Shown in pieces: positions 5,653 through 40,249 of a stretch of 41,204 bases of DNA. A model generated the notes under the pieces. That model had not been told where the DNA came from and ran no database searches. It worked only from the letters and a program-made list of their open reading frames with translations. Both the position numbers and the translations under genes were made by a program. This DNA comes from Oscillospiraceae bacterium (lineage in GTDB: Bacteria; Bacillota; Clostridia; Oscillospirales; CAG-272). Location: positions 1-41,204 of the forward strand of contig SVSC01000006.1 in assembly GCA_015064525.1 (NCBI GenBank), in the 5' to 3' direction. The first letter of the stretch is position 1. Each line of letters starts with the position of its first letter.

Positions 5653-5715
5653 CTTGACGGTGGAGGTCTGCCGCAGATTTGACGGTGGAGGTCTGCCGCA
5701 GGCTTGACGGTGGGA
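5653..5715. repeat. 25-bp tandem direct repeat, about 2.5 copies
   Basis: ttgacggtggaggtctgccgcaga units starting at 5654, 5679 and 5704 (third partial). Confidence 0.85.
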
Positions 5716-17141: not shown

Positions 17142-17152
17142 AAAGGATTCTG

Positions 17153-17536
17153 AACCCAAACGCTCCAAGGGGTTAGTTTGGGAAGAAAAGGGTGGCTTGT
17201 GGAACCTTCTTGAAAGAAGGTTCCACACCTCCAAGAACTTTCTCGTAGGGGTTGGTTTAGAGTTTGTGATACATGGCTGGCTGGTCGGTAGTTTTATGCC
17301 GCCTATCTGCGGTACGCTGATCAAGCAATCGCTGCCGCAAGCGTTTAGGTACCACCACCCTAAACGCTCCATAAGGTTAGATTGTTTGAACTGTTTTGGA
17401 CACAGATAAAATCTCATTCTCGGGGATAGCATGACCGAATTACAATCAAACAAGAGTCGAGTCTGGAAAGCGGGCTTGCCCGCCGAGTTTGGAAAGTGGG
17501 CTTGTCCGCCGAGTTTGGAAAGTAGGCTTGTCCGCC
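17153..17536 (+). repeat. Modular dispersed intergenic repeat, copy A
   Basis: Shares blocks with 23703-24410 and the reverse complement of 39045-39402: tgtggaaccttctt..aagaaggttccacacctccaagaactttc; gcggtacgctgatcaagcaat..gctgccgcaagcg; gaactgttttggacacagataaaatctcattctcgggga. Confidence 0.85.
17459..17536 (+). repeat. 26-bp tandem repeat x3 just upstream of obgE
   Basis: gagtctggaaagcgggcttgcccgcc / gagtttggaaagtgggcttgtccgcc / gagtttggaaagtaggcttgtccgcc. Confidence 0.9.
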
Positions 17537-17571
17537 CGACGATTTCGCATTCAAAGAGAGGAGTGTTCACA

Positions 17572-18852
17572 TTGTTTGTAGATCACGTAAAAATCCACAT
17601 CAAAGCAGGTGACGGAGGCAACGGCGCCGTAGCGTTTCACCGAGAAAAATATGTCTCCGCGGGCGGCCCCGACGGTGGAGACGGCGGCAGAGGCGGAAAC
17701 GTTGTCTTTCGCGTTGATCAGGGAACCAACACCCTTCTCGCCTTCCGCTATAAGCACCACTTCGCGGCAGAGCGGGGGGGTGACGGAAAGGGCTCCAAGT
17801 TTCACGGAGCCAACGGCAAGGATCTGATCATCATGGTTCCTCCGGGAACACTGATCCTCGACGTGGAAAGCGGCAAGATCATCCACGATATGTCCGAGGA
17901 TGACGGCGCCGACTATATTGCCTGCAAGGGCGGTCGGGGCGGTTGGGGCAACCGTCATTTCGCAACCCCCACCCGTCAGGTTCCCATGTTTGCCAAAAAC
18001 GGCACCCGCGGTGAGGAAAAAGAGGTGACTCTGGAGCTGAAAATGCTTGCCGACGTTGGCATCATCGGTTACCCCAGCGTTGGAAAGTCCTCGATTCTTG
18101 CCCGCATCAGCGCCGCCAAGCCCAAGATTGCCGACTATCATTTTACCACTCTTTCCCCAAACCTTGGCGTTGTTCGCACAGGGGGCGAGCAGGGCTTTGT
18201 TGCCGCCGACATTCCGGGGCTCATTGAGGGCGCCGCCGACGGCGCCGGATTGGGTCACGAATTCCTCCGCCACATCGACCGTTGCCGTCTCCTTTGGCAC
18301 GTGGTGGATATCTCCTGTTTTGAGGGCAGAGATCCCATTGACGACGTGGAGAGCATCAACGTGGAATTGGATCGCTACAGTCCCGAGCTTGCCGACCGCC
18401 CCCAGATCATTGTTTGCAACAAGACCGACGCGCTGGATCGGGAGCTGGTGGACGTGGATGCCTTTGAGCATTTTGTGGAGGTGAACGGCTGGGAGCTGTT
18501 CTACGTTTCCGCCGCCACGGGAGAGGGACTGGACGCCTTGCTCCGCCGCACCGCGGAGCGCCTGCGGGAGCTTCCCCCCATGAAGGTCTACGCCAAGGAA
18601 TACGATCCCGAGGATGCCTACGTTGGCGGTGGCAAGGAAACCGTAATCCGCCGCGAGAACGATACCTTCTTTGTGGAAGGCGAATGGCTTCTGAACCTGA
18701 TGGGGCAGATCAATTTCAGCGACTATGAGTCTCTCAATTTCTTCCAGAGAGTTCTCCAGAGAAGCGGTGTGTTTGAGGCGCTGGAGGCAAAGGGCTGTCG
18801 CGACGGTCACACGGTGTCGATCTATGACTTTGAATTTGAATACGTGAAATAA
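17572..18852 (+). CDS. obgE: GTPase Obg/CgtA (TTG start)
   Basis: FVDHVKIHIKAGDGGNGAVAFHREKYVSAGGPDGGDGGRGGNV; G1 GYPSVGKSS, G3 DIPGLIEGAADGAGLGHEFLRH, NKTD; C-terminal OCT domain. Confidence 0.95.
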   Translation: MFVDHVKIHIKAGDGGNGAVAFHREKYVSAGGPDGGDGGRGGNVVFRVDQGTNTLLAFRYKHHFAAERGGDGKGSKFHGANGKDLIIMVPPGTLILDVESGKIIHDMSEDDGADYIACKGGRGGWGNRHFATPTRQVPMFAKNGTRGEEKEVTLELKMLADVGIIGYPSVGKSSILARISAAKPKIADYHFTTLSPNLGVVRTGGEQGFVAADIPGLIEGAADGAGLGHEFLRHIDRCRLLWHVVDISCFEGRDPIDDVESINVELDRYSPELADRPQIIVCNKTDALDRELVDVDAFEHFVEVNGWELFYVSAATGEGLDALLRRTAERLRELPPMKVYAKEYDPEDAYVGGGKETVIRRENDTFFVEGEWLLNLMGQINFSDYESLNFFQRVLQRSGVFEALEAKGCRDGHTVSIYDFEFEYVK

Positions 18853-23358: not shown

Positions 23359-23685
23359 ATGAAACTGATACTTGCAATCATCAATAACGACGACACCGCA
23401 AAGGCATCCGCAGAGCTGAACCATGCAGGCTTTTTCGTAACCAAGCTCTCCACCACGGGAGGCTTTCTCATGGTGGGAAACACCACCCTGCTCATCGGCA
23501 CCGACGATAACGGTGTTGATGCTGTGAAGGAGATCCTACACGCTACCTGCGCCAGAAGAAAACACGTTTCCTCCACCGTGAACTCCCTGGGACGGGGCTT
23601 GGGCAACAACGGACTCCCCGATGAGGTGGAGGTTGGCGGCGCAACCGTCTTTGTGCTGAACGTGGAGGACATGACTAAGCTTTAA
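23359..23685 (+). CDS. darA: PII-like cyclic-di-AMP receptor (DarA/PstA family)
   Basis: MKLILAIINNDDTAKASAELNHAGFFVTKLSTTGGFLMVGNTTLLIGTDD...VGGATVFVLNVE. Confidence 0.9.
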   Translation: MKLILAIINNDDTAKASAELNHAGFFVTKLSTTGGFLMVGNTTLLIGTDDNGVDAVKEILHATCARRKHVSSTVNSLGRGLGNNGLPDEVEVGGATVFVLNVEDMTKL

Positions 23686-23702: not shown

Positions 23703-24410
23703 GGGGAAGTTCGTTTCGGAAGGAAGGGGGGATTGTGGAACCTTCTTGGAAAAAGGTTCCACACCTCCAAGAACTTTCCCGTAGTTATTTTTGGGGAATG
23801 TCGCGACAAGTAGCGGCATTCCCTTTCATTTTATGTCTCCTGTCTGCAGTACGCTGATCAAGCAATAGCTCCCGCAAGCGTTTTGGTACCACCACCCAAA
23901 ACGCTCCAAAGAGTTAGTTTCGGAAGGGAAGGATGGCTTGTGGAACCTTCTTGGAAGAAGGTTCCACACCTCCAAGAACTTCCTCAGGGGTTGGTTTAAA
24001 GTTAGCGATACATGGCGGCTCGGTTTTTAGTTTGGAATTAGCGATACATAGCGGCTCTGTCTATAGTTTTATGCCGCCTATCTGCGGTACGCTCACCAAA
24101 CAATAGCTGCCGCAAGCGTTTAGGTGCCGCCACCCTAAACGCTCCATAAGGTTAGATTGTTTGAACTGTTTTGGACACAGATATAATTTCATTCTCGGGG
24201 ACGGAATAATCAAATTTTAACCGAACGAACGTCGAGCTTGGAAAGCGGGCTTGCCCGCCCGCCACCCCATCCGCTCCATGATGTTAGTGAAGTTGAACTG
24301 TTTTGGAAACAGATAAAATCTCATTCTCGGGGACGGAATAATCAAATTTTAACTGAACGAACGTCGAGCTTGGAAAGCGGGCTTGCCCACCCTTCTTTCA
24401 AGAAGGTGTC
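23703..24410 (+). repeat. Modular dispersed intergenic repeat, copy B (compound, about three partial units)
   Basis: tgtggaacctt..aaggttccacacctccaagaactt occurs twice, the c(t)gtctgc(a/g)gtacgct..ccgcaagcg module twice, and gaactgttttgga(c/a)acagata..ttctcggggacggaataatcaaattttaac(c/t)gaacgaacgtcgagcttggaaagcgggcttgccc twice. Confidence 0.88.
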
Positions 24411-24412
24411 TC

Positions 24413-25744
24413 TTAAGGCGCTTCGTCGCCTTTCATGCGGATGATCAGCTTGATGGGGGTGCCATGGAAGCCGAAGGTATCACGGAGGCAATTTTCGATG
24501 AAGCGCTGATAGGAGAAGTGGAAAAGCTCGATGTTATTACAGAAGATCACAAAGGTGGGGGGCGCCACGGAGATCTGGGTCATGTAGTAGATCTTGAGGC
24601 GCTTGCCTTTGTCGGAGGGGGGCTGAACGCGGATCATGGCGTCACCGAGGACATCGTTGAGCAGACCCGTGGAAATTCTTTGGGTTGCCTGACCGAAGAC
24701 CTCGTTGATTTTCTCATAAAGAGTCTCCACCCGCTGTCCCGTTTTGGCGGAGACGAAGAAGATGGGGGCATAGGGCATATACGCCAGCGCGAGGCGGATC
24801 TGATCGGTGAATTCCTTCACGGTGCTGTTGTCCTTTTCGATCAGATCCCACTTGTTCACCACGATCACGGTTGCCTTACCCGCCTCGTGGGCAATCCCCG
24901 CGATCTTTTCGTCCTGCTCGGTGATGCCTTGCTGGGCGTCGATCATCAAGAGACAAACGTCGGCGCGCTCCACCGCCATGTGGGCGCGGAGAACGCTGAA
25001 ATGCTCGATCTTATCGTCGATCTTGGATTGGCGGCGAATCCCCGCCGTGTCAATGAAGGTGTACTTTCCGTGGGTGTTTTCCACACGGGTGTCAACCGCG
25101 TCTCGGGTGGTTCCCGCAATGTTGGAAACGATGAGACGGTTCTCGCCAACCATGCGGTTGATGATCGAGGACTTGCCCGCGTTGGGCTTGCCGATCACGG
25201 CAACCTTAATGGTGTCATCCTCCTCGGGAATATCCTCATAGTCGCCCAGCTCCTCCAGGCAGGCGTCGAGAATATCGCCCGAACCAGAGCCATGGATTCC
25301 CGAAACCTGAATCAGCTCACGGTCAAAGCCCAGCTCGTAGAATTCATAGAACTCCATGGGGGGATTGCCGATGCTGTCGCATTTGTTGATGGCGGGAACA
25401 ATGGGCTTGCCGCTCTTTTTCAGCATCACGGCAATGTCGCGATCATTGGCGGTCACGCCGGTGCGAACGTCGCAGAGAAATACGATCACGTCGGCGGTGT
25501 CGATGGCGATCTGCGCTTGCGTTTTCATTTGGGAGAGGATCACGTCATCGCTCTTGGGCTCAATTCCGCCGGTGTCGATGAGGATCAGCTTTTTGCCGCG
25601 CCATTCGGTTTCACCGTAGATACGGTCACGGGTTACGCCGGGAGTATCCTCCACAATCGAGCGGCGCTCGCCGATCAGTTTATTGAATAAGGTGCTTTTT
25701 CCAACGTTGGGTCTGCCAACGATGGCGATGATAGGTTTGGACAT
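24413..25744 (-). CDS. der: Ribosome biogenesis GTPase Der (EngA)
   Basis: Two G domains: IIAIVGRPNVGKSTLFNKLIGERRSIVEDTPGVTRDR and VAVIGKPNAGKSSIINRMVGENRLIVSNIAGTTRDAVDT; KH-like C-terminus. Confidence 0.96.
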   Translation of the reverse strand: MSKPIIAIVGRPNVGKSTLFNKLIGERRSIVEDTPGVTRDRIYGETEWRGKKLILIDTGGIEPKSDDVILSQMKTQAQIAIDTADVIVFLCDVRTGVTANDRDIAVMLKKSGKPIVPAINKCDSIGNPPMEFYEFYELGFDRELIQVSGIHGSGSGDILDACLEELGDYEDIPEEDDTIKVAVIGKPNAGKSSIINRMVGENRLIVSNIAGTTRDAVDTRVENTHGKYTFIDTAGIRRQSKIDDKIEHFSVLRAHMAVERADVCLLMIDAQQGITEQDEKIAGIAHEAGKATVIVVNKWDLIEKDNSTVKEFTDQIRLALAYMPYAPIFFVSAKTGQRVETLYEKINEVFGQATQRISTGLLNDVLGDAMIRVQPPSDKGKRLKIYYMTQISVAPPTFVIFCNNIELFHFSYQRFIENCLRDTFGFHGTPIKLIIRMKGDEAP

Positions 25745-39012: not shown

Positions 39013-39044
39013 TTGCGTCAAACATACTATTGCGGAGTTAGCTT

Positions 39045-39402
39045 AGGAGGACGGGATGGATTTTGGAACCTTCTTTCAAGAAGGGCGGGCAAGCCCGCTT
39101 TCAAGGATCGACATTCGTCCAGTTAAAATTTGATTATTCCGTCCCCGAGAATGAAATTTTATCTGTTTCCAAAACAGTTCGACCTCACTAATACCATGGA
39201 GCGGGCAGGGTGGTGGTACCTGACCACTTGCGGGAGCTAATGCTCGGTGAGCGTACTGCACGAACAAATTTATAAAACGAAAGGGAGTGTCGCTATCTAT
39301 CGCGACACTCCCAAAAAACATCTACAGGAAAGTTCTTGGAGGTGTGGAAACTTCTTTCAAGAAGGTTCCACAAGCCACCCTTTCCTTCCAAAACGAACTT
39401 CA
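39045..39402 (-). repeat. Modular dispersed intergenic repeat, copy C (inverted relative to A and B)
   Basis: Reverse complement contains gaagttcgttttggaaggaaagggtggcttgtggaaccttcttgaaagaag, cctccaagaactttcctgtag, gaactgttttggaaacagataaaatttcattctcggggacggaataatcaaattttaactgga. Confidence 0.88.
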
Positions 39403-39403
39403 T

Positions 39404-40249
39404 TCAATTTTCAATTTCAGCGTAGGTAGCGAGGATAAGATCGCGGGCTTGCTTGATGTCCTTGATCTGTTGCTCACCCGTGATCTCGCGTTCAATGGTG
39501 AGGGAGCCGTTGTAGTCCAGCTCCTGCAAGCGACGGATGATGGCGGGAATATTCGCTTTGCCCTCACCTGCGGGAACCTGACGTCCCAGCTTCATGCCGT
39601 CGGTGGGGTAGAAGCCGTCCTTGATGTGGGTGTCCATCACGTAGGAGCCAAAGGTATCCAGCGCGTCCAGCGAGTTAGACTTTCCGTAGAGCATGAGGTT
39701 GGCGGTGTCGAAATTGATGCCGAGATTTGAGGTGCCAATGGCTTGAATGGTGCGGAGCATGGTAACGGGAGTTTCCTGACCGGTTTCAAAGAGGAAGAAC
39801 TGGTTTTTTGTCTTCATGTAGCTGCAAAGATGGCGAAGCGCCGCAACGGTGCCGTTAAAGTCGGGATCATCGGGACTTTCGGGCAGAAAGCCAACGTGGG
39901 TGATCACTTGGTTCACGCCGATCTTCTCGGCAAAGTCGGAGGCGTCCTTCAGCTCCTGCAGGCGCTGATAGCGATAAGCGGCGGGAACCAGACCGATGGT
40001 TGCGGGGCCCGCGGTGAAGTTCCATTCGCAGGGGCCGCTCCAGCCTGCCCAAACACCGGTAACGGGGAAGCCCGTTTTTTTCAGGACATCCTTGACGTGA
40101 GCGGCGAATTCGTCGCTCTTGAATTTGCTCACGTTCCAGATGCAAAGCTGACAGCTTTCCAGCCCCAGCTCCTGCGCCTTGCGAATTTCCTTTTCCAACT
40201 CCACGCCCTCGTCCAGGCGGATCATAATGCCAATGGGAAACCTTTTCAT
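39404..40249 (-). CDS. Sugar phosphate isomerase/epimerase-type TIM barrel
   Basis: GLESCQLCIWN, VTGVWAGWSGPCEWNF, LFETGQETPVTML, GINFDTANLMLYGKSN, DTHIKDGFYP, LTIEREITGEQQ. Confidence 0.87.
   Translation of the reverse strand: MKRFPIGIMIRLDEGVELEKEIRKAQELGLESCQLCIWNVSKFKSDEFAAHVKDVLKKTGFPVTGVWAGWSGPCEWNFTAGPATIGLVPAAYRYQRLQELKDASDFAEKIGVNQVITHVGFLPESPDDPDFNGTVAALRHLCSYMKTKNQFFLFETGQETPVTMLRTIQAIGTSNLGINFDTANLMLYGKSNSLDALDTFGSYVMDTHIKDGFYPTDGMKLGRQVPAGEGKANIPAIIRRLQELDYNGSLTIEREITGEQQIKDIKQARDLILATYAEIEN

Follow-up and report, generated by a model that had tools for sequence, protein, structure and literature searches.

Between lacZ and obgE in the window (the whole 41,204-nt stretch of DNA that was analysed) lies a hairpin-rich block, at 17153-17536, and the question it raises is whether this sequence belongs to its neighbouring genes, to a class of structured RNAs, or to something that has spread. 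A sequence-only reading had proposed a modular, hairpin-rich interspersed repeat with two further copies on the same contig. We found all five of its modules at 17153-17536 (array A), at 23.69-24.41 kb in the same orientation (array B) and, inverted, at 39.04-39.40 kb (array C), and copies across the genome bear the proposal out. Specifically, a BLAST search with 17142-17560 against its own genome (2.18 Mb in 149 contigs, 82% complete, from an uncultured organism) returned 126 matches at E <= 1e-3, which group into about 40 arrays; these lie on 27 contigs and so are not confined to this one. Non-self similarity within the genome is far above chance (best E for the block 1.3e-117). The array count is a lower bound: scoring covered 40 of the 49 first-look candidates, and many arrays are located at contig ends, where the family breaks metagenome assemblies. 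By this search the block is part of a high-copy, intergenic repeat family.

What recurs is an arm of about 330 nt (positions 14-343 of the query) whose units, when the arrays are read out, keep a fixed order: left end, H1, CCTCCAAGAACTTTC, a variable middle hairpin, H2, H3, the junction CGCTCCAnnnGTTAG and a 132-nt type-II unit. The window holds the following parts of the family:

17155-17197, + strand: left end of the arm (CCCAAACGCTCCAAGGGGTTAGTTTGGGAAGAAAAGGGTGGCT), with a GTTAGTTT..GGAAG end
17198-17227, + strand: H1, a 13-bp hairpin (TGTGGAACCTTCT-TGAA-AGAAGGTTCCACA) whose stem covaries across congeners
17228-17242, + strand: conserved trailer CCTCCAAGAACTTTC, a diverged inverse of the H1 5' arm
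17308-17339, + strand: H2, TGCGGTA...TGCCGCA (helix 1; 83% of cells paired, few double changes)
17340-17368, + strand: H3, AGCGTTTAGG-TACCACCAC-CCTAAACGCT (helix 2; 94% of cells paired)
17352-17483, + strand: type-II unit of 132 nt (query 211-343, matched repeatedly at 132-nt spacing)
17458-17535, + strand: three tandem 26-nt units CGAGTTTGGAAAGCGGGCTTGCCCGC
23709-24391, + strand: array B (type I, type I, type II, type II), in the gap from a cyclic-di-AMP receptor gene to engA
39084-39398, - strand: array C, one arm, beginning 5 nt past the stop of the gene at 39404-40249 (- strand)
39043-39084, + strand: inverted copy of the left end that closes array C, forming a terminal inverted repeat with 39351-39391

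The left end has the form (A)GTTAGTTTnGGAAGGnAAGGGTGGATT, and a scan for its pattern gave 46 matches in the genome versus 2 for the reversed control. It recurs in inverted form at the right ends of arrays. Arrays L011 (dnaN-recF), L017, L019, L022, L024 and L030 have two facing arms, and others, such as array C, close with the inverted left end. In a complete element the trailer CCTCCAAGAACTTTC forms base pairs with the arm opposite, and the middle hairpin exists in two dissimilar sequence versions among arrays. The type-II unit starts in the loop and 3' half of H3 (general form AGCGnnnnGG-TACCACCAC-CCnnnnCGCT), ends in the palindrome GGGCTTGCCC and terminates in GGGCTTGCCCGCC; it is seen in tandem in contig C77. 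Type-I units, of about 205 nt, share the junction CGCTCCAnnnGTTAG with it, and both kinds can repeat. The mosaic of modules proposed from the sequence alone is thereby upheld in part. Units are indeed repeated or lost between copies, but they always stand in the same order, and the modules belong to the ~330-nt arm (one of them, ggaaagcgggcttgcccgcc, is a piece of the 26-nt unit that stands in tandem three times at 17458-17535); the mosaic look arises because whole type-I and 132-nt type-II units repeat or drop out at the shared CGCTCCAnnnGTTAG. As a separate observation, the right ends of arrays L005, L008, L010, L014 and L018 often run directly into another repeat that starts GTGTCATCCTGAGCGGAGGCGGTGAGGAG, and some repeats with this beginning reach contig ends.

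The base-pair covariation predicted for the hairpins is present in H1 and H3, the stems of which carry double-sided changes. At least seven stem types of H3 are seen here (TTTT/AAAA, TTTA/TAAA, TTTG/CAAA, GCTG/CATC, CGCC/CGCG, GTCA/TGCC and TTCA/TGAA); they are nearly always matched, with one mismatch in GCTG/CATC and GTCA/TGCC. For H2 and H3 together, 60 cells in 50 sequences show a change in both partners of the pair (H3 accounts for 59), where shuffles give 22.5 and slid controls 7-20. For H1, 19 sequences (mostly from congeners) are 97% paired and 7 of the 12 pairs have changed on both sides, a level reached by 0 of 500 shuffles; an apex-anchored count, the rows of which were pre-chosen for pairing, agrees. 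The hairpins are thus preserved. An RNA function does not follow from this, because the arms of a palindrome can correct one another by template switching or gene conversion. In arrays L042, L046 and L051, a variant of H3 has a loop with a nested hairpin (AACGGCTTGCCGTT / AACGACTTGTCGTT), itself with one compensated pair. The sequence-only reading had recognised no described family here, and Rfam likewise gave no gathering hit in the window and, on the block at E <= 10, chance-level hits only. A likeness to the T-box in the complement of the H3 loop (AGGGTGGTGGTACC), seen by eye, was dropped since Rfam returned no T-box hit.

The complete element is apparent in relatives, where two arms face each other in a near-palindrome of 350-800 bp. 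In the congener G020, a full copy (L156) has its two arms in inverted orientation. H1, trailer, AATAGCTCCCGC and H3 are present in both arms, and the copy is bounded by the ends GCATAAGCTTnnTTAACGTAATATTTTT, for which that genome has 37 matches versus 0 for the reversed control; in its predicted fold, a fishbone, H1 and H3 each appear twice as side hairpins (-193 kcal/mol, z -15). A genome of a different genus, G355 (96% complete), holds about 20 copies, several of them nearly identical, that end in AAATTAGGATTTATCGG...CCGATAAATCCTAATTT. The AAATTAGGATTTATCGG ends there pair up at 208-450 bp (e.g., C1:2582-2808, C4:8400-8680 and C16:61627-62072) and seem to bracket several different interiors, as if a single set of ends could carry various hairpin cargoes. 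A covariance model built on H1 and its trailer (R1) detected the H1 unit in 35 of 35 genomes of the genus, the largest count being at least 142 copies with 150 candidates scored per genome. Across the GTDB family, 82 of 146 genomes gave a match, and these represent 49 of 71 genera. In a class-wide sample, which doubles as a specificity control, the unit was found in 7 of 291 genomes, this one included. The H1 structure is therefore conserved over much of the family and rare beyond it. Where the H3 pattern matched a named genome, this was always an uncultured "Clostridia bacterium" assembly from the gut of roe deer. With more than 100 copies in each of several genomes of this ruminant-gut lineage, the repeat would rank among the larger undescribed structured repeat families in Clostridia; in the open-licence full-text literature we found no description of palindromic or dispersed repeats like this from Clostridia or the gut.

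The element appears to have moved about the genome, because it is present or absent at dnaN-recF, has near-identical copies within one genome and has defined inverted ends. The dnaN-recF gap measures 15-62 nt in 15 of the 25 genomes having the pair, and 824 nt here, where two facing arms fill the stretch between the dnaN stop and the ribosome-binding site of recF; the same gap contains H1-type elements, which differ in sequence, in G002, G010, G014, G017, G024, G025 and G026. Arm identity within a genome is 0.79 here, 0.58 in G020 and 0.53 in G022, versus 0.32-0.40 between genomes. Our main reading, to which we give a probability of roughly 0.7, takes the block to be a single arm of a mobile repeat that is palindromic (foldback/MITE-like) and non-autonomous, is mobilised in trans and settles past stop codons. 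Its spread would depend on a trans-acting enzyme that recognises the ends or the folded arms, and it would settle mainly just past stop codons, either as a target or as a tolerated site; recombination between units may have left solo arms and tandem arrays such as those of the window as remnants. Pattern scans found no autonomous element sharing these ends in this assembly, where all left-end matches sit in arrays, and no kilobase-scale pair of ends in G355, and the mobilising enzyme could be absent from the data because the present assembly is 82% complete. No target-site duplication is visible at two-ended copies, for which close relatives offer no base-precise empty site to compare. Carriage by plasmids or phages was considered and set aside: no plasmid matched the arm, no phage matched the G020 element, and viral contigs contained no exact H3 core.

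The position of the arrays relative to genes bears on what the arms might do once settled. Of 32 solo arrays in this genome, 24 come after the 3' end of a gene on their own strand (p = 0.007; genes being simple ORF picks), with H1 a median 33 nt past the stop in those 24. The genes preceding arrays include gyrA, gyrB, dnaN, ksgA and birA, and in array L003 the GTTAG of the element provides the gene's stop codon; in strictly co-directional gaps the orientation is only 6:2. In G022, 15 of 18 hits follow a same-strand gene (within 400 kb picked by contig, not by hit), two-armed copies such as those in L202 and L207 sit between convergent genes, and a T-tract follows each of the 8 H3 stems examined. 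Both arms of one G022 copy were called as facing terminators (2 found versus 1.0 in shuffles). The window's block lacks the T-tract and a scan called no terminator-like site there, and an intrinsic terminator in this copy was set aside; in array B two such sites were called, a number not clearly higher than in shuffles. Judged from these predicted sites, a terminator role is plausible in some lineages and unproven in the window's own.

Somewhat short of even odds, in our estimate, is the proposal that an arm downstream of a gene enters the transcript and gives it a structured 3' end. H3 plus T-tract would then act as an intrinsic terminator in at least one congener, and a two-armed copy between convergent genes as a two-way one; in the window's lineage the arm would be a 3'-UTR structure at most, because the T-tract is missing there. 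A wider proposal, which we regard as rather unlikely, is that a mobile lineage in one family of gut Clostridia spreads the folded arm as a portable 3'-end module, its mobiliser reading folded arms and not a fixed sequence. Each jump would set hairpins behind a gene, forming a true terminator in some lineages and acting in both directions in the two-armed form, and structure would be kept while sequence turns over between genomes because the enzyme would read the folded arms. Should the arms indeed terminate transcripts, a mobile element would be rewriting the 3' ends of genes in this family.

Several of these observations also fit a structured RNA. Under such an explanation the block would primarily be a 3'-UTR stabiliser or terminator maintained by RNA selection, its dispersal being incidental, and the double-sided changes in H1 and H3, the same-strand placement directly past stop codons and the T-tracts after H3 in G022 are consistent with it. 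However, congeners differ in whether they have an element at the same site, copies are near-identical within one genome against identities of 0.32-0.40 between genomes, and the T-tract is lacking in the window's lineage. Compensatory changes, moreover, are also produced by template switching or gene conversion between arms. We consider RNA selection as the primary cause unlikely.

A second alternative retains mobility and assigns it to a known enzyme, with the family being a REP/REPIN family moved by a resident RAYT (Y1, IS200-like) transposase. The inverted hairpin pairs, remnants, tandem clusters, downstream position and compensatory changes all have counterparts in REP/REPIN families (PMC3116915, PMC3733652). 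Yet the corresponding domain, Y1_Tnp (PF01797), has no match in this assembly; it matches 6 of the 35 genomes of the genus and none of the other 29, which include G022 (97% complete, at least 129 H1 copies) and G026 (91% complete, 100 copies). Nor is there a GT(A/G)G head (GTAG or GTGG) directly 5' of H1, where a T-run or GGATT/GGCTT stands instead. Movement by a resident RAYT is, on this evidence, very improbable.

The block fills the lacZ-obgE gap, and it had been suggested that it could form part of the obgE 5' UTR, a reading that would give it a role in regulating that gene. We do not favour this reading, and rate it as close to negligible. The block begins about 13 nt past the lacZ stop codon on the same strand, solo arrays elsewhere mostly trail same-strand genes that are unrelated to obgE, and obgE has no fixed leader of this kind. 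All 28 congeners whose obgE start is intact have engA as the preceding, same-strand gene (within 400 bp in 21), the gap being short in most of them. In the window the two genes are about 5.6 kb apart (engA 24413-25744, - strand; obgE 17572-18852, + strand), with the engA stop (24413) facing array B and the obgE start facing array A. Arrays A and B coincide with rearrangement breakpoints, because inversion of 17.54-23.7 kb would restore engA-obgE, and we infer that the rearrangement took place through recombination between the two arrays. Other features of the region may be recorded here. The cyclic-di-AMP receptor gene beside array B (23359-23685) has a detectable relative in 1 of 34 congeners; a perfect 44-nt palindrome without spacer, CCTCGAAGTTGAGATGCCTGATATCAGGCATCTCAACTTCGAGG, lies within an ORF at 2920-2963 and could be an assembly or sequencing artefact; and a tandem pair of 25-nt direct repeats, 92% alike, occupies 5654-5703 (TTGACGGTGGAGGTCTGCCGCAGAT).

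Least probable of all, to the point of being discountable, is an integron-type cassette array with the GTTAG junctions as attC core sites, which follow the rule GTTRRRY: tandem units do share a junction, one junction (GTTAGAT) fits the rule and folded single-strand sites tolerate stem variation, but most junctions read GTTAGTT or GTTAGTG, against the rule, and the units are dispersed over 27 contigs with no cassette gene evident within them.

How, then, does the repeat compare with known systems? REPINs and REPs occur as inverted hairpin pairs around a spacer, as solitary remnants and as tandem clusters, and show compensatory stem changes (PMC3116915, PMC2817692, PMC3733652), and REPs prefer gaps downstream of genes (PMC3733652). 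The present family shares with them high-copy extragenic hairpins, inverted doublets (as in L156, L157, L202, L207 and L196), remnants, clusters, compensatory changes and the downstream-of-gene bias, but its arms measure about 170-340 nt and contain several hairpins, whereas a REP measures 20-40 nt. The BOX element of Streptococcus pneumoniae combines an outer hairpin module with internal units of variable number, is MITE-like, is overrepresented between convergent genes and has a reported TIR and TSD (PMC3049150). The BOX-like architecture noted in the sequence-only reading is confirmed as modularity only: set against the published architecture of BOX, the present family has no TSD that we could see, and its whole arms are duplicated or inverted. 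SPRITE, also of S. pneumoniae, is a single 18-bp duplex with a U-rich tract (PMC3049150) and is likewise a terminator-like repeat near the 3' ends of genes; here, in contrast, T-tracts follow H3 in G022 only, inside a larger two-armed element. With bacterial MITEs the family has in common short, non-coding copies, many of them near-identical (G355), and inverted ends, seen both in G355 and in the window (39043-39084 with 39351-39391), but no parent transposase and no target-site duplication were found here. The repeat works like a REPIN, yet fails the RAYT and GTAG-head tests, and it is MITE-like, although neither a TSD nor a parent was found; its best reading is that of a new, non-autonomous, foldback/MITE-like repeat family.
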